DNA of 41,480 nucleotides from Chloroflexota bacterium (lineage in GTDB: Bacteria; Chloroflexota; Anaerolineae; Aggregatilineales; UBA3940): assembly GCA_010092885.1 (NCBI GenBank), contig JAADYX010000103.1:1-41480 (forward strand). The letters are read 5' to 3'. Position numbers and translations under genes: made by a program. Positions 5,722 to 28,743 of the stretch are shown one piece after another. The notes below the pieces were generated by a model. The model did no database searches, was not told where the DNA came from, and was given only the letters and a program-made list of their open reading frames with translations. The first letter of the stretch is position 1. The number at the start of each line of letters is the position of its first letter.

Positions 5722-6516
5722 CTAGCCAAAGCGACCGGAGACGTAGTCCTCGGTCTCTTTTTTCTGCGGGTTGGTGAAGATCTGCTCGGTGGGACCGAAC
5801 TCAACCACATGGCCGATGCGAGCATCGGGGTTGCTGCGGTCAATGCTCATAAACGTCGTGTAGTCGGACACACGAGCTGCCTGCTGCATGTTATGCGTCA
5901 CGATCACGATGGTGTAGTCTTCCTTCAGCTCGTGCATCAGCTCCTCAATGCGCAGGGTCGCGATGGGGTCCAATGCGGAAGCAGGCTCGTCCATCAGCAG
6001 GACATCGGGCTGAGTGGCCAAGGCGCGGGCAATGCACAGACGCTGCTGCTGACCACCGGAAAGGGCCAGGCCGTTCTCCTTAAGCTTGTCTTTGACCTCG
6101 TCCCATAGGGCGGCCTGCCGCAGACAGCGCTCAACCAGCTCATCCATGTTGCCCTGGTAGCCGTTGATGCGCGGGCCAAAGGCGACGTTCTCGTAGATTG
6201 TTTTGGGGAACGGATTCGGCTTCTGGAAGACCATGCCAATCCGGCGGCGGACTTCGACCGGGTCGGTGCTGTCATCGTAGATGTTCCGCCCGTCGTAGAT
6301 GATTTTCCCCTCAACGCTGGCACCCGGAATGAGATCGTTCATGCGGTTGAAAGAGCGCAGCACGGTGCTCTTTCCACAGCCGGAAGGGCCGATCAGAGCG
6401 GTGATATGATTGCGCTTGACCTGCAGGTTGATGTTGTCAACAGCCAGTTTGCCGTCGTAGTAGACGCTCAGGCCATCGGTCTCGAATACGTAATCAGTAC
6501 TGCCGTTGGTTGTCAT
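5722..6516 (-). CDS. pstB: Phosphate ABC transporter ATP-binding protein PstB
   Basis: This is the cytoplasmic ATPase of the high-affinity phosphate importer PstSCAB. The 264 residues show Walker A (GPSGCGKST, about 42-50), the Q-loop region ([19 protein letters not shown], typical of PstB), the signature [15 protein letters not shown], Walker B ([13 protein letters not shown]) and the switch His in [16 protein letters not shown]. It is the third gene of pstC-pstA-pstB and starts 13 bases after pstA. No phoU follows, which is a common place for it; the convergent HD gene lies there instead. Confidence 0.97.
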
Positions 6517-6529
6517 CGGAGTTCCTCCC

Positions 6530-8188
6530 TTACCACTTGATTTCGAACCGGTTGCGTAAGAAGATAGCGATAGCGTTCATGGAAAGCATGATGGCCAACA
6601 GAATGATAATGCCTGCAGCGGCCAGCTGAACGCGGAACGCATCGCCGGGCAGCTGGACCCAGTTATAGATCTGGATGGGCATTACGGTGAACTGGTCCCA
6701 GATTGAGCTGGGCAGGAAGGCGATGAACGTGAACGCACCCATGATGATCAACGGAGCGGTTTCACCGATCGCGCGGCTCAGCGCGAGGATCATGCCTGTC
6801 ATGATACCAGGGAAAGCAATCGGGAAGATGGTCCGCGAAATCACCTGCCATTTCGTAGCACCCAGACCGAATGCCGCCTCACGAATGGAGGGCGGAACTG
6901 CACGGATCGCCTCACGTGAAGCAATAATCACGATAGGCAGGATGAGCAGGGTCATGGTGGCCCCACCAGCCAGCAGGCTGCGGCCAAAGGGCAGATGGAT
7001 CTCCAGCCAGGGAATGCCGAACAGGTTGAATATCCAACCGCCAACGGCACCTTCTTCCACAGGGATGTTGAATGCCTGGACCAGCGGACTCGATGGTCGG
7101 AATGCACCGAAGAATCTGACAAATACCGTTAGACCGAGCATACCATAAACAATCGACGGGACACCCGCCAGATTGTTGATGTTGATGTTGATCAGGTTGG
7201 TCAGCCAGCCACGATTGGCGTACTCTTCCAGGTAGATGGCAGCCCCCACACCCAGTGGGAAGCTGAACAAGGCCGTCAGGCCGATCACGATCACACTGCC
7301 GACGATACCGGAAAGCATGCCTGCTTCACGCGGGCGCCGTGAAGGAAAGTCCGTGATGACCGTTCCCGTTAGTGGGGGGCGGGTGCCAAACAACTCTTCC
7401 AGCTGAGTCTGGTCACCGTCCGGGTCTGCGGCAAAGAACATCAGCGTGCCTTCTTCCAGCACGACAGTCCGGCGGCCCATGCTGGTTTCCAGCGTGATAT
7501 TCTGCTGGACAGACAGTTCCTCTGTGCCGTCATCGCTGGCGATCTGCACTGAGATGGTGGGACCTTCAAAGCTGCGGATTTCGCCGGCGATGCTGCCCTC
7601 GGGTGGCCCAACAAGGATCTCCTGGCCAATAATGAAATCCTGGCGTTCGATGCCAATGACCATCACATGAGCGCTGCCGTCTACGGGGAAGCTCTCCAGT
7701 GTTGCGGGGGTTTCTCCTTCATCCTCGTCGAGAATGACGGTGTCCTCATCGATCTGGATCAGAACCTCGCCATGCTCTGTGTCTAGCACGAGAAATTCGA
7801 GATTGAGGGTATCGCCACCGCGTGTCTCCTCTGTCCTGGTTTCCGTGCCAACGATCTCGCCAGCGATACCCCGGTCAGTCTGCGTACGTGATCCAGCGAT
7901 GCGCTCAAGCGGATCGATCACCGCAACCTCGTTGGCTGTGATCGTGTCGCCAGAGATGTCGCCCGTAACGAGCATGTAGTCACCGGGCAGGTCGTTGAAG
8001 ATACCCTTGACGACTACATCTGTAATGAGTAAGGCGAGCATCACCAGGCCGAACACAGTGGCCAGGATCAGAATGACAAAGAAGATGCGCCCGGCATTCT
8101 CGCGAGCTGAGCGGTTTTCTTTATACGTGCCTACGGCTTCAGCCGCAGGAGCCTGTGTCGTCGGTGTGGTGGTTTCGACGGTGCTCAT
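6530..8188 (-). CDS. pstA: Phosphate ABC transporter permease PstA with a large extracytoplasmic insertion
   Basis: This is a membrane permease of the Pst phosphate importer. At 552 residues it is about twice the usual PstA length. Residues about 33-60 form the first membrane helix. From about 68 to 280 there is an inserted, acidic, strand-rich domain not found in ordinary PstA. The normal sequence resumes with [19 protein letters not shown] and five further helices, including the permease loop [20 protein letters not shown]. The insert contains two similar blocks, each starting IAGEI (about 109 and 201) and followed by beta strands. By topology it should lie outside the membrane, where PstS docks. 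The gene overlaps pstC by 4 bases. Confidence 0.94.
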
Positions 8189-9183
8189 TCGTACTCCTCC
8201 CGGAAGCGCCGCAGGATGAAGTCACCAATCAGGTTCATGGTGAAGGTCATCAGGAACAGGGTGGCCCCGACTGCATAGATCGACTGGCTGTTGATCGAGC
8301 CAGCAGCGGCATCGCCAAAGCTAACCTGCACGATGAATGCGGTCATCGTCTGGACACTTTCCAACGGGTTAAGTGTCATTTTGGGGGTTGCGCCCGCGGC
8401 AACGGTCACCGCCATTGTCTCCCCGATAGCGCGGGAAATCGCGATCACGAAAGATGCCAGAATGCCACTGAGGGCGGCGGGCACGACAACACGGGTAGCT
8501 GTTTCGAACTGGGTAGCTCCTAGCGCGAATGATCCTTCACGCAGGCTGCGCGGCACTGATCGCATCGCGTCCTCACTGATGGAGGCAACCAGCGGGATGA
8601 TCAGAACGCCAACAACGATTGATGCACTCAATGCGTTGAACAGGTTGATTTCGATTTCCCCGGGGCCGTCCGTCAAACCGAAGGCGGTATTGATGGCCGC
8701 GATGATGCGTTCAAGCTGGGGCGTGATGAAAACGAGAGCGAAATAGCCATAGACAACGGTAGGAATGCCTGAGAGAATCTCCAGCAGGGGTTTGACCGCG
8801 CGCCGCAGCCTGCCGGGCGCATACTCGCTGAGGAAGATGGCGGTTGCCAGACCGACCGGCAGCGCAACCAGGCTGGAGAGCACGGCGATCATGATCGTGC
8901 CGTTGATGAGTGGAAGTATACCAAACTGCGGATTGGACTGCAGCAGAGGTGCCCATTCCGTACCGGTCAGGTATTCACGAAGGGTTACTTCCGGGTTAGC
9001 GGTGAAGAAGGTGATGGCTTCACCAAAGAGTGAGGCAATAATGCCCAGTGTGACGAGGATGGAGAACGCACTGGCTATAAACAGCAGCGCATGCATGACG
9101 CGCTCATACACGTTGCGTGCTGCTTGTGTGCGGAGAAAAGCCAGCGGCCCGCCTCCTCCTGAGTCAATCGGAACATCGGCCAT
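8185..9183 (-). CDS. pstC: Phosphate ABC transporter permease PstC
   Basis: First gene of the pst operon: the second membrane permease of the PstSCAB phosphate importer. The 332 residues contain about six hydrophobic helices, the PstC-typical segment after helix one ([19 protein letters not shown]) and the permease loop [21 protein letters not shown] that contacts PstB. The N-terminal 18 residues are glycine-rich. An AAGGGA ribosome binding site precedes the ATG. A sigma-70-like promoter and, further upstream, a PHO-box-like array are present. The phosphate-binding protein pstS is not adjacent and not in the window. Confidence 0.96.
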
Positions 9184-9231: not shown

Positions 9232-9259
9232 ATTGTAGCCCAGAGAGGGCAAATGACAA
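9232..9259 (-). promoter_or_regulatory. Probable sigma-70 promoter of pstCAB
   Basis: On the minus strand TTGTCA (9259-9254), a 16-base spacer and TACAAT (9237-9232) match -35 and -10 consensus in five of six positions each. The -10 lies about 48 bases upstream of the pstC ATG. Confidence 0.6.
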
Positions 9260-9317
9260 AATTGGCGAGATAAATGCACCCCTAAGTGAGTTACAACTCG
9301 ACACGCTAACACATGCG

Positions 9318-9356
9318 ATTTAAACACGTGTTAGATGCGTGTTAAGAGTAGTTTAA
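9318..9356 (-). promoter_or_regulatory. PHO-box-like array of four 11-bp-spaced hexamers
   Basis: Read on the minus strand, four hexamers lie exactly 11 bases apart: TTAAAC (9356-9351), TTAACA (9345-9340), CTAACA (9334-9329) and TTAAAT (9323-9318), each separated by 5 bases. This is the geometry and nearly the sequence of PhoP-binding sites described in Bacillus (TTAACA-like direct repeats, 11-bp period). The array sits in the shared control region of pstC (135 bases to its start) and the zinc-ribbon gene (about 50 bases to its start). Binding by a PhoP-like regulator is inferred from position and pattern. Confidence 0.65.
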
Positions 9357-9379
9357 ATGAATCGAAGTCCTGTGTAAGG

Positions 9380-9385
9380 TATACT
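9380..9385 (+). promoter_or_regulatory. Probable -10 box of the zinc-ribbon gene
   Basis: TATACT lies 19 bases before the ATG of the downstream gene. No good -35 is present at 16-18 bases upstream; instead the PHO-box-like array ends 23 bases upstream, as in activator-dependent promoters. The leader would be very short. Confidence 0.4.
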
Positions 9386-9404: not shown

Positions 9405-10271
9405 ATGGCTGTTGACGAAAAACGAATGCCGCAAGAAGCGCGTGAGAAATCGGCTGCTGCACCGGTGATGTGCATGTCCTGTGGCCAGTCCTTTTCGGCG
9501 GATCTGTGGCAGCCATGGATGCGCTGCCCGCATTGTGACACAATCGGCTACCCGGACCACGCAGGCTTTCACCTGATGCCCCTCAATTGGCTGTGCCAGG
9601 AATGCGGGCATGACAACGACGGTTTGACGAACTTCTGTGTGAACTGCGGCGCAGGCCTCGTGAGCCGCTGCGCGCGCTGCGAGTCGCCTGTATATGCTGC
9701 TTCCTGCACGGTGTGTGGCACCCTCCAGCAGCCTATCCTTCAACGTATTCGGATGGCGCAGTACCGGGATAAACACTTTCAGCCGGTGCGCTCGCGTGTG
9801 ATTGTGAAGAAAGTCCAACAGGAGGCAGCCATACGCCCCGCGGCACGCCACAATCCGACTTACGGTGTTGCCGGCTGGCGTCAGATCAACCCATCAGGGA
9901 ATGGCAATCCACAACCACCACAAGAGGAAGACCAACCTGCTGGGGGCCAATGGCAGACCGCACCAACTGCTACCACATCGGGCGGGTCATCTGCACAAAC
10001 AGCGCCAGCCAAAAAGCGAACCAATCGCACATGGCCCTCCCGTTTTGCAGGTCTGTTCTGGATAATCGTCGGGCTTGCTTTCCTGCTTGCATCAGAGAGC
10101 GGTGCTGAACTGCTAGGATGGGAGAATGGTACACCCCTCGACAGCATCATTACCCTGTACAATGAGAATACTGCAGAAATCTGGTTGGGGATCACCGCAG
10201 TGGGCGGCCTTATTGCTATCCTGGTAAGTGTGCGCCTCTTCCGGCGAATTAGCGAACAGCTCTTCCCCTGA
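9405..10271 (+). CDS. Zinc-ribbon membrane protein of unknown function
   Basis: The 288-residue protein begins with six CxxC knuckles (Cys 23/26, 41/44, 64/67, 78/81, 89/92, 101/104), enough for three zinc ribbons in a row, as in double-zinc-ribbon and zinc-ribbon proteins. A basic region and a Gln/Pro/Gly-rich linker (about 140-205) lead to two predicted membrane helices (about 213-231, 258-276), so the ribbons would face the cytoplasm. The start is supported by GGAGGTGA six bases upstream. It is divergent from pstC and shares its regulatory region, which hints at phosphate-linked expression. No specific function can be assigned. Confidence 0.85.
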   Translation: MAVDEKRMPQEAREKSAAAPVMCMSCGQSFSADLWQPWMRCPHCDTIGYPDHAGFHLMPLNWLCQECGHDNDGLTNFCVNCGAGLVSRCARCESPVYAASCTVCGTLQQPILQRIRMAQYRDKHFQPVRSRVIVKKVQQEAAIRPAARHNPTYGVAGWRQINPSGNGNPQPPQEEDQPAGGQWQTAPTATTSGGSSAQTAPAKKRTNRTWPSRFAGLFWIIVGLAFLLASESGAELLGWENGTPLDSIITLYNENTAEIWLGITAVGGLIAILVSVRLFRRISEQLFP

Positions 10272-10306
10272 TGTAAGCTTCGGCCCCAATTGAGCGTCTA
10301 ACAAGT

Positions 10307-10328
10307 GAAGTCACGCGGTCGTGGCTTC
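10307..10328 (+). terminator. Terminator after the zinc-ribbon gene
   Basis: A 9-bp stem with one G-T pair (GAAGTCACG / CGTGGCTTC) and a four-base loop is followed by a T-rich run (ATTTGTTTTGTGTTT). It lies 36 bases after the stop codon. Confidence 0.75.
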
Positions 10329-10379
10329 GCATTTGTTTTGTGTTTATGTTCCTCTGACGAAATGCATATGTGCAAAGGG

Positions 10380-10408
10380 TTGACAAAATTCCGATCCGCC
10401 TGTAACAT
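10380..10408 (+). promoter_or_regulatory. Strong sigma-70 promoter of the sigma-factor gene
   Basis: TTGACA (10380-10385, perfect -35), a 17-base spacer and TAACAT (10403-10408) form a clear promoter. The expected transcription start falls at about 10415, inside the first TTGTACAA site, giving a leader of about 60 bases. Confidence 0.8.
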
Positions 10409-10410
10409 GG

Positions 10411-10440
10411 TTGTACAAAGCTTGTACAAGGATTGTACAG
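10411..10440 (+). promoter_or_regulatory. Triple TTGTACA operator-like array
   Basis: TTGTACAA at 10411-10418, TTGTACAA at 10422-10429 and TTGTACAG at 10433-10440 are spaced exactly 11 bases. TTGTACAA is itself a palindrome. The array begins two bases after the -10 box and covers the expected transcription start and early leader, a position typical of repressor sites. A fourth TTGTACAA lies just past the gene at 11507-11514. The binding protein is unknown. Confidence 0.6.
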
Positions 10441-10476
10441 CCTTTTGAGCAACTGCGAAGTCAGGAAGGCAAGAGA

Positions 10477-11490
10477 ATGAGCAATGTCGTAGAAGAATTT
10501 CTGGAAAAAGTAGAAGCCGACCTGCGTGCTGAAGAAAGTACGTTTGCGGATTATCGAGTTGAATTAGAGAACATTGATCATATCCCGGCTGATGATACGG
10601 TGAGTCTCTACTTCCGGCAGATGGCCAGCGAACCGCTGTTGACCGCCGAGCAGGAAGTTGAACTGGCCAAGTACATCGAACGCGGCATGCAGGCTGAGGA
10701 GATCCTCACTGAGGATCCGGAAATGAGCTTCAGTCAGGAACGGCGCATGCGCGAGATCGTGTTTGCCGGTCAGGAAGCGCGCGAGCATCTGGCACGGGCC
10801 AACACCCGGCTGGTGGTAAGCATTGCCAAGCGCTATCGCAACCAGGGTCTGCCCATGTCCGATCTCATCCAGGAAGGCAACGTCGGCCTGATGATCGCGG
10901 TGGACAAGTTCGACTATACGATGGGCAACCGGTTCAGCACATACGCGAGCTGGTGGATCCGCCAGACAATCACCCGGGCCCTCTCACAGAAATCCCGGAC
11001 GATCCGGCTGCCGCTGCATCTTTCCGATCAGCTGCGGCGTGTGACGACCGCTATGGAGATCATGGGCCAGGAGTTGGGCCGCGACGCGACTATCGAAGAG
11101 GTGGCGGAGCGCCTCGGCCTTGAGCCGGACGAAGTGCGTGATGTGCTTGAAGCCAATCCACAGACTATCGCGCTGGAAGCACCTGTGGGTGATGACAGCG
11201 AGTTCGGCGATTTCATCGAAGACGACCAGTCTATCAGCCCGGATGATGCGATGCACGGGGTGATGCTGACTGAAACGCTCAACCGCATTATGGGTGAACT
11301 GATGCCCCGTGAGGCAGAGATCCTGCGCCTGCGCTTCGGTCTCAATGGTGGTGTGCCGCAGACCTTGGAGCAAGTAGGCAAGGCGATGGGCCTCTCGCGT
11401 GAGCGCATCCGCCAGATTGAACGCCAGGCACTGCGCCGTCTGCGCCAGCCGCAGTTCGCCGCCATCCTGCAGGACTTCTTCGCCTCCTGA
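10477..11490 (+). CDS. RNA polymerase sigma factor, RpoD/SigA family
   Basis: A sigma-70 factor of 337 residues that directs RNA polymerase to promoters. Region 1.2 (DTVSLYFRQMASEPLLTAEQ) is present, region 1.1 is absent. Region 2 follows (TRLVVSIAKRYRNQGLPM to RFSTYASWWIRQTITRAL), then region 3 with linker and region 4 (TLEQVGKAMGLSRERIRQIE). The length and lack of region 1.1 fit a compact primary or a group 2 sigma factor; which one cannot be told from this window. The start at 10477 is supported by AGGAAGG; a frame-consistent ATG at 10411 lies inside the promoter/operator region and is rejected. Expression is probably controlled through the TTGTACA array. Confidence 0.93.
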   Translation: MSNVVEEFLEKVEADLRAEESTFADYRVELENIDHIPADDTVSLYFRQMASEPLLTAEQEVELAKYIERGMQAEEILTEDPEMSFSQERRMREIVFAGQEAREHLARANTRLVVSIAKRYRNQGLPMSDLIQEGNVGLMIAVDKFDYTMGNRFSTYASWWIRQTITRALSQKSRTIRLPLHLSDQLRRVTTAMEIMGQELGRDATIEEVAERLGLEPDEVRDVLEANPQTIALEAPVGDDSEFGDFIEDDQSISPDDAMHGVMLTETLNRIMGELMPREAEILRLRFGLNGGVPQTLEQVGKAMGLSRERIRQIERQALRRLRQPQFAAILQDFFAS

Positions 11491-25580: not shown

Positions 25581-26714
25581 ATGCTGAACTGTTTGATCAT
25601 TGGCGGCGGTATACATGGCACCTATCTATCCCATGTGTTGGTCCACCGCGCGGGGATAGACCGGGTGCGCGTTCTTGATCCCCATATAGAACCACTGGCT
25701 CGCTGGAATCGTCTTTCAGCTAATAGTGGGATGCGCTTCATGCGTTCACCTGCGGCGCATCACATCGGGTTGGAAGCCAACGCACTGCTGGCCTACTCAC
25801 GCAGCCATCCGGAGCGCAGCCCCACCGCCGATTTCCGGGGACGAATGCTCAAGCCTTCCTACGCGCTCTTTCAAACCCACGCACGACACGTTATCGAATG
25901 CAACCGGCTGGCTGATCTGCGCGTGCAGGGGCGAGCGCATACCATCGCAGCCAACGGGCGCGGTCTGACCGTGGAAACCGACCGGGGGCTACTTCACGCG
26001 CGGCGGGTTGTGCTCGCGATTGGTCGAACGGCGGTGCGCCGTCCCGGCTGGGCAGAAGGCATCCCACACGTGTTCGATGCGGACTTTAAGCGGGATGATC
26101 AGAGCCCTTGGGTACATGCGGTTGGCTTCGGCGGCGGGATCACAGCAGCGCAGCTGGCGCTTGCATTGGCCAGGCAGCGTCCTGGTCAGGTAACCCTGCT
26201 CTCGCGCCGCAGGCTGCGTGTCAGCGAGTTTGATGCCAGTTCGTGTTGGGTGGGGCCTGCCTGCCGCAAACAATTAGCCCGCACGCCAGATTTCGATGCG
26301 CGCAGGCACATAGTCAACCAAGCGCGGCACAGCGGAACTGTCTCTCCGGTGGTGGCTACCGCAGTCCGGCAGGCCCATGAACGCAGAGAACTCATCCATA
26401 AGGTTGGTGAAGTTGCCCTACGGCAGGACGATACACTGCATCTGTATGATGGCCGGACGCTGCAAGCCGATAGAGTAATACTCGCCACGGGCTTTTCTGC
26501 AAGGCGACCGGGTGGCCGGTGGCTCTCGCAGGTTATCGACAGTTTGGGACTGCCGACGGCTGCGTGTGGCTATCCGGTCGTGGATTGGGGGCTGCACTGG
26601 GGAAAAGGGATCCACGTGAGCGGCCCGCTGGCGGAACTTGAACTCGGTCCCGCCGCACCGAACATCGCAGGCGCACGGCTGGCCGCACAACGGCTGCACG
26701 GGAGTTTGTCATGA
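25581..26714 (+). CDS. FAD/NAD(P)-binding oxidoreductase-like protein
   Basis: The 377 residues begin with a Rossmann dinucleotide motif (LIIGGGIHGTYLSHVL) and contain a second one (HAVGFGGGITAAQLALAL, about 181-198) plus the ATG motif RVILATGFSARRPGG. The region NRLSANSGMRFMRSPAAHHI resembles lysine/ornithine N-monooxygenase-like and other FAD-NAD(P)-binding proteins. The reaction is unknown. It overlaps the response regulator by 4 bases (ATGA), so it belongs to the same transcript as the two-component system. The ribosome binding site is weak, which suggests coupling to the S1 gene upstream. Confidence 0.82.
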   Translation: MLNCLIIGGGIHGTYLSHVLVHRAGIDRVRVLDPHIEPLARWNRLSANSGMRFMRSPAAHHIGLEANALLAYSRSHPERSPTADFRGRMLKPSYALFQTHARHVIECNRLADLRVQGRAHTIAANGRGLTVETDRGLLHARRVVLAIGRTAVRRPGWAEGIPHVFDADFKRDDQSPWVHAVGFGGGITAAQLALALARQRPGQVTLLSRRRLRVSEFDASSCWVGPACRKQLARTPDFDARRHIVNQARHSGTVSPVVATAVRQAHERRELIHKVGEVALRQDDTLHLYDGRTLQADRVILATGFSARRPGGRWLSQVIDSLGLPTAACGYPVVDWGLHWGKGIHVSGPLAELELGPAAPNIAGARLAAQRLHGSLS

Positions 26715-27367
26715 AGACGATTCTGTTGGTGGATGACAGCGCAAATATCCGGCTGATGGTATCCGACTACCTGTCAGAGGCAGGCTACCGCGTCGTGACC
26801 GCAGACAACGGGCGCGATGCGCTCTTCACTGCGCGGCATGAAAAACCTGACCTGATCCTGTTGGATATTATGATGCCTGAGATGGATGGGTACACGTTCA
26901 TCAAGACATTCCGCAAGGAACGCGAGACACCGATCATCCTGCTGACGGCAAAGTTGGATGAAACCGACAAAGTCATCGGGTTGGAGTTGGGTGCCGATGA
27001 CTACGTGACCAAGCCGTTCGGCATGCGGGAACTCGTCGCGCGGATCCGGGCGGTGCTGCGCCGTGCGGAGCATACACCTACCATGGGTGAAGTACTGCGT
27101 GGGGGCGGCATCGTGCTTGATCGCGGGAGCCGGACCGTCCACGTTGGTGATGAGACCATCAGTCTTACCCCGTCTGAGTTCGACCTGCTGGCCATCCTGA
27201 TGGAAACGCCGGAGCGGGTCTTCTCCCGGGGGGAGCTGCTTGAAAAGATGGCGAATGACACGGGCGTAGAACGCACCATCGATACGCATGTCAGCAACCT
27301 GCGCAGCAAAGTCCCTGAAGAGTCCATCGAAACGGTCTTTGGGGTTGGCTACCGGTTTCGCCCCTGA
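26711..27367 (+). CDS. OmpR/PhoB-family response regulator
   Basis: A 218-residue two-domain transcription regulator. The receiver domain has the acidic pair (LLVDDS), phospho-acceptor Asp 52 (LILLDIMMPEMDGY), the Thr/Ala switch (ILLTAK) and the Lys (YVTKPF). The C-terminal winged helix (about 125-216) ends with RTIDTHVSNLRSKVPEE and VFGVGYRFRP. It is translationally coupled with the kinase that follows (TGATG) and with the flavoprotein before it. Its target genes cannot be told; the PHO-box-like array at 9318-9356 could be bound by a member of this family, but nothing links it to this one. Confidence 0.96.
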   Translation: MKTILLVDDSANIRLMVSDYLSEAGYRVVTADNGRDALFTARHEKPDLILLDIMMPEMDGYTFIKTFRKERETPIILLTAKLDETDKVIGLELGADDYVTKPFGMRELVARIRAVLRRAEHTPTMGEVLRGGGIVLDRGSRTVHVGDETISLTPSEFDLLAILMETPERVFSRGELLEKMANDTGVERTIDTHVSNLRSKVPEESIETVFGVGYRFRP

Positions 27368-28743
27368 TGCGCTCAATCACCGTTAAGCTCACCCTCGCGT
27401 TTGTGATCGCCAGCGTGATTGGCGCAATTCTTGTCGCAGTCATCGTGCGGCAGGTCACCCTCAGTGAGTTCGACCGGTTGGTGGTTGAAAGCACGCGTGA
27501 GGCCTTCGCGGCCTATGCGGTTCAATATTATTCGCGCAACGGCAGCTTTGCGGGCTTCGACCGGTGGCTGCCGGATCAACTGCGACGCGGCGGCCCACGT
27601 GGACGCCAGCCCCTTGACCCAAATGCATTTCGGGCCTTCGCGCTCGTGGATGCAACTGGCCGGGTGATCTGGCCAGCTGGGGGTCTGCAACCCGGCCAGA
27701 CGATACCACCTGAACGTGCCAGCAGCGGGATGGCCGTACAGGTCAACGGCGAGACTATTGCTGTTGTGCTGACGGTCGGTGAAACACCACCGCTCAACCC
27801 ACAGGAGCAGCGTTACATCCGGCAGACGGACCGGGCTGCTCTGCTGGCAGCGGGCATCGCGGGGACGGTAGGCATTGTGCTCAGCGTATTCCTCGCTCGT
27901 TCGCTAACGCGCCCTATCCGCGATTTGACGGCAGCCACACGCGGTCTCGCTGGAGGCGATCTGCGGCAGCAGGTTCCCGTGCGCACGCGTGATGAGCTGG
28001 GTGACCTGGCAGTGGCCTTCAACCAGATGAGCGCCGATCTCGACCGCTCCAACCGGCTGCGCCGCCAGATGACAGCGGACATCGCCCACGACCTGCGCAC
28101 TCCATTGACCGTGATCAACGGCTATCTGGAAGGTCTGCGTGACGGGGTCGTGGAACCCACACCAGAACGTTTTGATATCATGCATGCTGAGGCCGCTAAC
28201 CTGATGCGGTTGATCGAGGATCTACGCACCCTTTCTCTGGCTGACGCTGACGAATTGAGCCTCAAACGGCAGGCGATACAACCGCGCGATCTATTGGAAC
28301 GAACGGCTGCTGCGCACGCGGTGCAGGCCGAGACCCACGGGATCCGTTTGCGGGTTGAGACGGATCCGGAGCTGCCCCCCGTGATTGTGGACCGCGACCA
28401 GATGGCGCGGGTATTGGGCAATCTGGTGACTAATGCGCTGCGTTACACACCCGATGGAGGTCTGGTGATGCTGTCCGCACGGCAGGCGAACGGCACAGTT
28501 GAGCTGGCTGTTGAGGACACAGGCACCGGGATCGCGCCGGAGGACCTGCCCCACATCTTTGAGCGCTTCTACCGGGTAGACAAATCACGCACATCGGGCG
28601 AGTCCGGATTGGGGCTGGCCATTGCACGCTCTGTTGTTGAAGCCCACGGCGGCACAATCCGGGTCCGAAGCCAGCTTGGTCAGGGGACACAGTTTGTGAT
28701 CGCGCTTAATCCGGCAGCACCTCGATCCGGATCCGCTCACTGA
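27367..28743 (+). CDS. Membrane sensor histidine kinase (HAMP-HisKA-HATPase)
   Basis: The 458-residue partner kinase of the preceding regulator. One membrane helix at about 8-28, an extracytoplasmic sensor region (about 30-155), a second helix at about 157-177, a HAMP linker (ARSLTRPIRDLTAATRGL), the phosphoacceptor His 241 (ADIAHDLRTPLTVI), the N-box (LGNLVTNALRYTPDGG) and G-boxes (VEDTGTGIAPEDLPHIFERF, SGLGLAIARSVVEAHGG). All catalytic parts look intact. Its 3' end overlaps the convergent PBP gene by 38 bases. The signal is unknown. Confidence 0.96.
   Translation: MRSITVKLTLAFVIASVIGAILVAVIVRQVTLSEFDRLVVESTREAFAAYAVQYYSRNGSFAGFDRWLPDQLRRGGPRGRQPLDPNAFRAFALVDATGRVIWPAGGLQPGQTIPPERASSGMAVQVNGETIAVVLTVGETPPLNPQEQRYIRQTDRAALLAAGIAGTVGIVLSVFLARSLTRPIRDLTAATRGLAGGDLRQQVPVRTRDELGDLAVAFNQMSADLDRSNRLRRQMTADIAHDLRTPLTVINGYLEGLRDGVVEPTPERFDIMHAEAANLMRLIEDLRTLSLADADELSLKRQAIQPRDLLERTAAAHAVQAETHGIRLRVETDPELPPVIVDRDQMARVLGNLVTNALRYTPDGGLVMLSARQANGTVELAVEDTGTGIAPEDLPHIFERFYRVDKSRTSGESGLGLAIARSVVEAHGGTIRVRSQLGQGTQFVIALNPAAPRSGSAH

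Follow-up and report, generated by a model that had tools for sequence, protein, structure and literature searches.

A predicted PHO-box promoter in front of the pstCAB genes of a Chloroflexota bacterium

Described PHO boxes and the array in front of pstC

The PhoP boxes of Bacillus subtilis are TTAACA-like hexamers repeated at an 11-bp period in the direction of the coding strand, and the box recognised by mycobacterial RegX3 is GTTCACC-like. In Escherichia coli, 10 bp separate the PhoB boxes from a downstream -10 element of the form TAN3T/A (PMC1906773). The SphR boxes of cyanobacteria are CTTAACCT 8-mers joined by 3-bp linkers, and thus also of 11-bp period, which occur at least three in tandem and precede pst, phoA and nuclease genes (PMC1906773). 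No described PHO box for the lineage considered here, apparently Chloroflexota, was found in the literature searched, which lay mostly outside subscription journals.

The stretch of DNA analysed, called the window, comprises 41,480 nucleotides of one contig from a genome of 4.06 Mb in 431 contigs. The minus strand of one of its intergenic regions carries the hexamers TTAAAC, TTAACA, CTAACA and TTAAAT, and their exact 11-bp period, claimed in an earlier note on this DNA, is borne out by the sequence; the spacers between them, read on that strand from 9356 down to 9318, are tactc, cgcat and cgtgt. The note had also correctly placed this array between pstC and a zinc-ribbon gene (Table 1). With high confidence, the site can be read as a PHO-box operator-promoter of pstCAB, used by a phosphate-starvation regulator. 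Such promoters are recognised by tandem direct repeats at an 11-bp period, by their position before genes for phosphate acquisition, in the direction of transcription, by conservation in orthologous promoters beyond that of the spacers, by a TAnnnT -10 element set at a constant short interval after the last box, with no -35, and by their occurrence before several phosphate-scavenging genes. The array consists of four such repeats, and pstC lies 135 bp downstream of it on the same strand.

The likeness to Bacillus drawn in the note holds for the TTAACA-like sequence and the period, but the array is at least as close to the SphR box (CTTAACCT, N3 linker), in whose manner it can be written TTTAAACT act CTTAACAC gca TCTAACAC gtg TTTAAATC. 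It differs from the SphR system in the phylum, in having four boxes, of which the third is usually degenerate within the family, and in that the -10 register has been measured here. The B. subtilis system likewise belongs to a different phylum, and the candidate regulator of this genome, encoded on contig C279, finds its best NCBIfam match in PhoB and its nearest solved structure (PDB), over the full length, in RegX3. This last point is shared with the mycobacterial SenX3-RegX3 system, whereas the RegX3 box differs from those of the window. As in E. coli PhoB promoters, tandem 11-bp units replace the -35 element and are followed after 10 bp by a TAnnnT -10, but the box is TTAAAC/TTAACA here and CTGTCAT in E. 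coli.

Table 1. Features of the window around the array
Feature	Position	Strand	Basis or remark
pstB, ATPase	5722..6516	-	TIGR00972, 392 bits, cut-off 343
pstA, 552 aa	6530..8188	-	TIGR00974, 238 bits, cut-off 193
pstC, first gene downstream of the array	8185..9183	-	TIGR02138, 275 bits, cut-off 196
Ordinary sigma-70-like promoter TTGTCA-N16-TACAAT, between array and pstC	9232..9259	-	10/12 consensus bases
Predicted -10 TAGCGT of the PHO-dependent pstC promoter	9303..9308	-	inferred from geometry conserved in relatives
Four-box PHO array TTAAAC-N5-TTAACA-N5-CTAACA-N5-TTAAAT	9318..9356	-	11-bp period, reads towards pstC
-10-like TATACT of the zinc-ribbon gene	9380..9385	+	sequence
Divergent zinc-ribbon protein gene	9405..10271	+	DZR (PF12773), C-terminal hydrophobic stretches

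The pattern YTAAMH taken four times at 11 bp matches the window once and 100 dinucleotide shuffles not at all, and its two-box form matches three times, always inside the array, against 0.06 expected; these patterns were composed after the site was known, and the independent tests given below carry more weight. Nothing comparable to the array lies elsewhere in the window. Across the genome, (TTAACA N5)x3 with at most 3 mismatches is found six times, two of these being the array, while the reversed-pattern control gives two matches. The first array scans relied on a hand-made TTAACA matrix and were superseded by word-spacing and de novo motif tests; the learned matrix was applied to the window and to selected contigs, and the genome-wide scans were made with patterns.

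Conservation upstream of pst across the order

Regions upstream of pst were collected from 40 relatives, in all of which pstS precedes pstC, and 37 non-redundant regions were retained; those without a clear site (e.g. L047 and L085) stayed in the word-spacing and motif counts. Pairs of TTAA, counted directly as a word and with no matrix, are found 12 times at a spacing of 11 bp, 34 times at 22 and 12 times at 33 in these regions, with an excess also at 10 and 32 and about one pair at each of the other spacings. An 11- or 22-bp pair is present in 28 of the 37 regions, whereas shuffles give a mean of 0.5 and at most 3. Other four-letter words produce no such peak, and neither does the remainder of the same loci. 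The motif learned de novo by EM from both strands of the 37 regions, with the window left out, is cTTAAaC-N5-TT-N9-cTTnAC, and it stands in the orientation of pst in 36 of them. Scanned over both strands of the window, it has its best match at 9330-9357, that is, on the array, and its second best one box further on. The note had named a lack of hexamer conservation in aligned pst upstream regions as refuting its claim of a phosphate-starvation regulator, and the claim strongly survived this test.

In the closest relative, whose PstC is 73% identical, TTAAAC-TTAACA-CTAATC-TTAAAG is followed in the same register by TATGGT, before pstS. Between this region and the window, box bases are conserved at 21 of 24 positions and spacer bases at 6 of 24; the alignment was anchored on the boxes, which somewhat favours the contrast, and the informative part is that the spacers are at chance level. 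Two further genera likewise have four boxes, with a -10 at this register. Arrays of this kind precede pst in named Anaerolineales and Dehalococcoidales records as well, and the named best matches of pstC (Dehalococcoidales, SAR202 and Anaerolineales records) fit an origin in Chloroflexota.

The -10 element and the promoter geometry

Of 33 pst regions, 21 have a TAnnnT hexamer downstream of the motif at an offset of precisely 10 bp, where its mean score is +2.5; at every other offset the mean lies between -2.5 and -7. In the window, the hexamer at offset 10 is TAGCGT when boxes 2 to 4 are taken as the motif. It shares no more than 3 of 6 bases with TATAAT, yet it has the T, A and T that relatives keep. 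The note, which correctly gave 23 bases from the array to the -10 of the zinc-ribbon gene, overlooked that the opposite end of the array is just 9 bases from this predicted -10, which is the spacing from the last hexamer at which relatives keep TAnnnT. The predicted promoter has no -35 hexamer, its place being occupied by the last box. Downstream of it lies a second promoter, TTGTCA-N16-TACAAT, of a grade expected 0.3 times in shuffles; it is possibly a basal promoter.

The pst operon and its missing first gene

In the window, pstC follows directly behind the array with no pstS before it, whereas the operon of the relatives begins with pstS. The only clear PstS found in the genome is a domain in the open frame with which contig C272 begins (L115:2-1228), where it forms the C-terminal part of PstS and the frame runs on into a PhnD phosphonate/phosphite-binding domain; phnC- and phnE-like genes, so named from a reading of their sequences, lie downstream. 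The contig end cuts off the N-terminus and the promoter of this gene, so that the genome's own pstS upstream region is absent. In another family member (G006, L128:2-1591), PstS is fused in frame to a UgpB-like domain, likewise at a contig start. Contig starts within pstS call for caution; however, the frames are open and the fusion partners differ. It is a tentative idea, and a rather doubtful one, that the pst promoter lost its usual first gene, the array driving pstCAB alone, and that a single fused PstS-PhnD binding protein might serve two importers. A PF12849 match on contig C71 was rejected as PstS, its sequence reading as a tungstate-type binding protein.

Two further features of these operons were observed. 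In the N-terminal half of the window's PstA, a long insertion, of some 200 residues, separates the first hydrophobic stretch from the permease domain. The other feature concerns one family of the order (L151, L154, L157, L170 and L174), where the first gene behind the PHO promoter, in the position of pstS, encodes a fasciclin-like N-terminal stretch, as judged by eye.

The divergent zinc-ribbon gene

It had been proposed in the note that the zinc-ribbon gene, being closer to the array, may be a new member of the phosphate regulon. The corresponding explanation, that the array controls both divergent genes and that the regulator also activates or represses the zinc-ribbon gene, is unlikely. The 23 bases that separate the array from TATACT speak for it, as does the palindromic nature of TTAA, owing to which the plus strand also reads as a four-box array, albeit a weaker one (17.2 against 27.9 with the hand-made TTAACA matrix). 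However, the nearest plus-strand box begins 27 bp before TATACT, where PHO promoters have 15 bp, so that the geometry is not an activating one, and the motif is directed to pst in 36 of the 37 relatives. Counting this one, eight genomes of the family carry the gene. None of the orthologues in the seven others inspected has an upstream array (best score at most 4.5, against 17.2 for the window site), and none of the seven lies beside pst. Their conserved partner is a sigma-factor gene, which adjoins the orthologue in six of six genomes with contig room.

The same order is found in the window, where the zinc-ribbon gene is followed on the plus strand by a primary-type sigma-factor gene; the two are neighbours in all family genomes that show both (L098-L103; window 9405-11490), which suggests that they are functionally linked. 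The two nearest relatives have another gene upstream of pstS, common to both. Since the orthologues do not lie beside pst and a different gene precedes pstS in these relatives, it would appear that the zinc-ribbon/sigma pair came to adjoin the pst promoter through a rearrangement in this genome. With orthologues free of the array, a sigma-factor gene as neighbour and an unfit orientation and spacing, the proposed regulon membership is not upheld, and the zinc-ribbon gene is probably a bystander.

Just upstream of the sigma-factor gene, at 10408-10440, the window contains three TTGTACA(A) units, again at an 11-bp period, and single or double copies of TGTACAA precede the sigma-factor gene in four of six relatives. 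This repeat may be a separate operator.

Other genes behind the promoter pattern

When the full promoter pattern was searched in 61 genomes of the order, 36 matches were obtained, against 8 for the reversed control, and about 15 of the 36 are pst promoters. In several genomes the pattern also precedes genes for UgpB-like proteins, assigned below the curated cut-off, and in a family member it precedes a metallophosphoesterase gene. Uptake of glycerol-3-phosphate is a classical function of the phosphate regulon, and the ugpB-like targets therefore connect the motif with phosphate, beyond pst alone. The promoter is thus common to several phosphate-scavenging genes in relatives, while the genome itself gives weak candidates only.

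This genome has no exact match to the strict pattern, because the array of the window departs slightly from it. A relaxed pattern finds the array and one further site, on contig C407 (L144:1130-4225), where a PHO-like array, followed by TATGCT at the spacing kept in relatives, stands before the gene of a secreted protein of 1003 aa that carries two lamin-tail domains and DUF3616; this gene is a plausible second target. The genome's best array match, TTAACA-TTAACA-TTAACG on contig C352 (L118:4136-4164), lies between rfbC-like and Ser/Thr-kinase/WD40 genes. As a PHO promoter it was judged weak or due to chance, its -10 candidate being at offset 20 and not 10, and the motif matches on contigs C394, C226 (within an ATP-synthase-alpha-like gene) and C320 were judged in the same way.

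The candidate regulator and the proposed mechanism

On contig C279, a phoU gene that scores above its cut-off stands beside genes for a kinase, with PnpS and PhoR as best matches, and the PhoB-like regulator (249 bits); kinase and regulator fall below the equivalog cut-offs for PhoB, PhoR and PnpS. No array was found upstream of phoU or of the regulator genes of this genome. Another regulator of the OmpR family, such as that of the pair at 26711-28743 of the window, could bind the boxes in place of the C279 regulator, so that pst would answer to a different signal from phosphate. Direct repeats of similar period are the binding sites of many members of this family, and PhoB is the best NCBIfam match of the window regulator too (211 bits, below the cut-off). 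This explanation is nevertheless very improbable: the C279 regulator scores higher against PhoB and is encoded next to phoU and the gene of a PnpS/PhoR-like kinase, the kinase of the window pair resembles WalK/BaeS, and the promoter found before pstS also stands before ugpB-like genes. That the repeats arose by chance in an intergenic stretch AT-rich for this genome, with pstCAB driven only by the good sigma-70-like promoter closer to pstC, is hardly credible against the shuffle controls, the order-wide conservation of spacing and orientation, and the boxes kept while the spacers diverge.

The proposal of the note that a phosphate-starvation regulator acts here is supported, for pstCAB, by this order-wide conservation, the orientation and the -10 spacing, all of them features of the sequence. 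In the model of a PHO-box promoter of pstCAB, phosphate starvation would cause a histidine kinase to phosphorylate a response regulator of the PhoB/PhoP/RegX3 type, the two being probably the pair beside phoU on contig C279. The regulator would bind the boxes head-to-tail from 9356 to 9318, one monomer per 11-bp unit. As the last box replaces the -35 element, the bound regulator would recruit the housekeeping RNA polymerase to the -10 at 9308-9303, and pstCAB would be transcribed leftwards from about 9296. The constitutive-looking promoter at 9259-9232 may supply basal expression. Binding and activation, like the phosphorylation and the identity of the regulator, are predictions drawn from comparison of sequences.

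Significance

The site is very probably a PHO-box promoter, a switch of known kind, in a lineage for which no published description was found. The fixed spacing is held in common with E. coli and the box sequence with cyanobacteria, which together suggest that the mechanism would be an old one. For this lineage, the analysis provides a testable PHO-box consensus and geometry, namely cTTAA(A/C)C at an 11-bp period with a TAnnnT -10 element 10 bp after the motif, and these allow the phosphate regulon to be predicted from sequence in these mostly uncultured bacteria.
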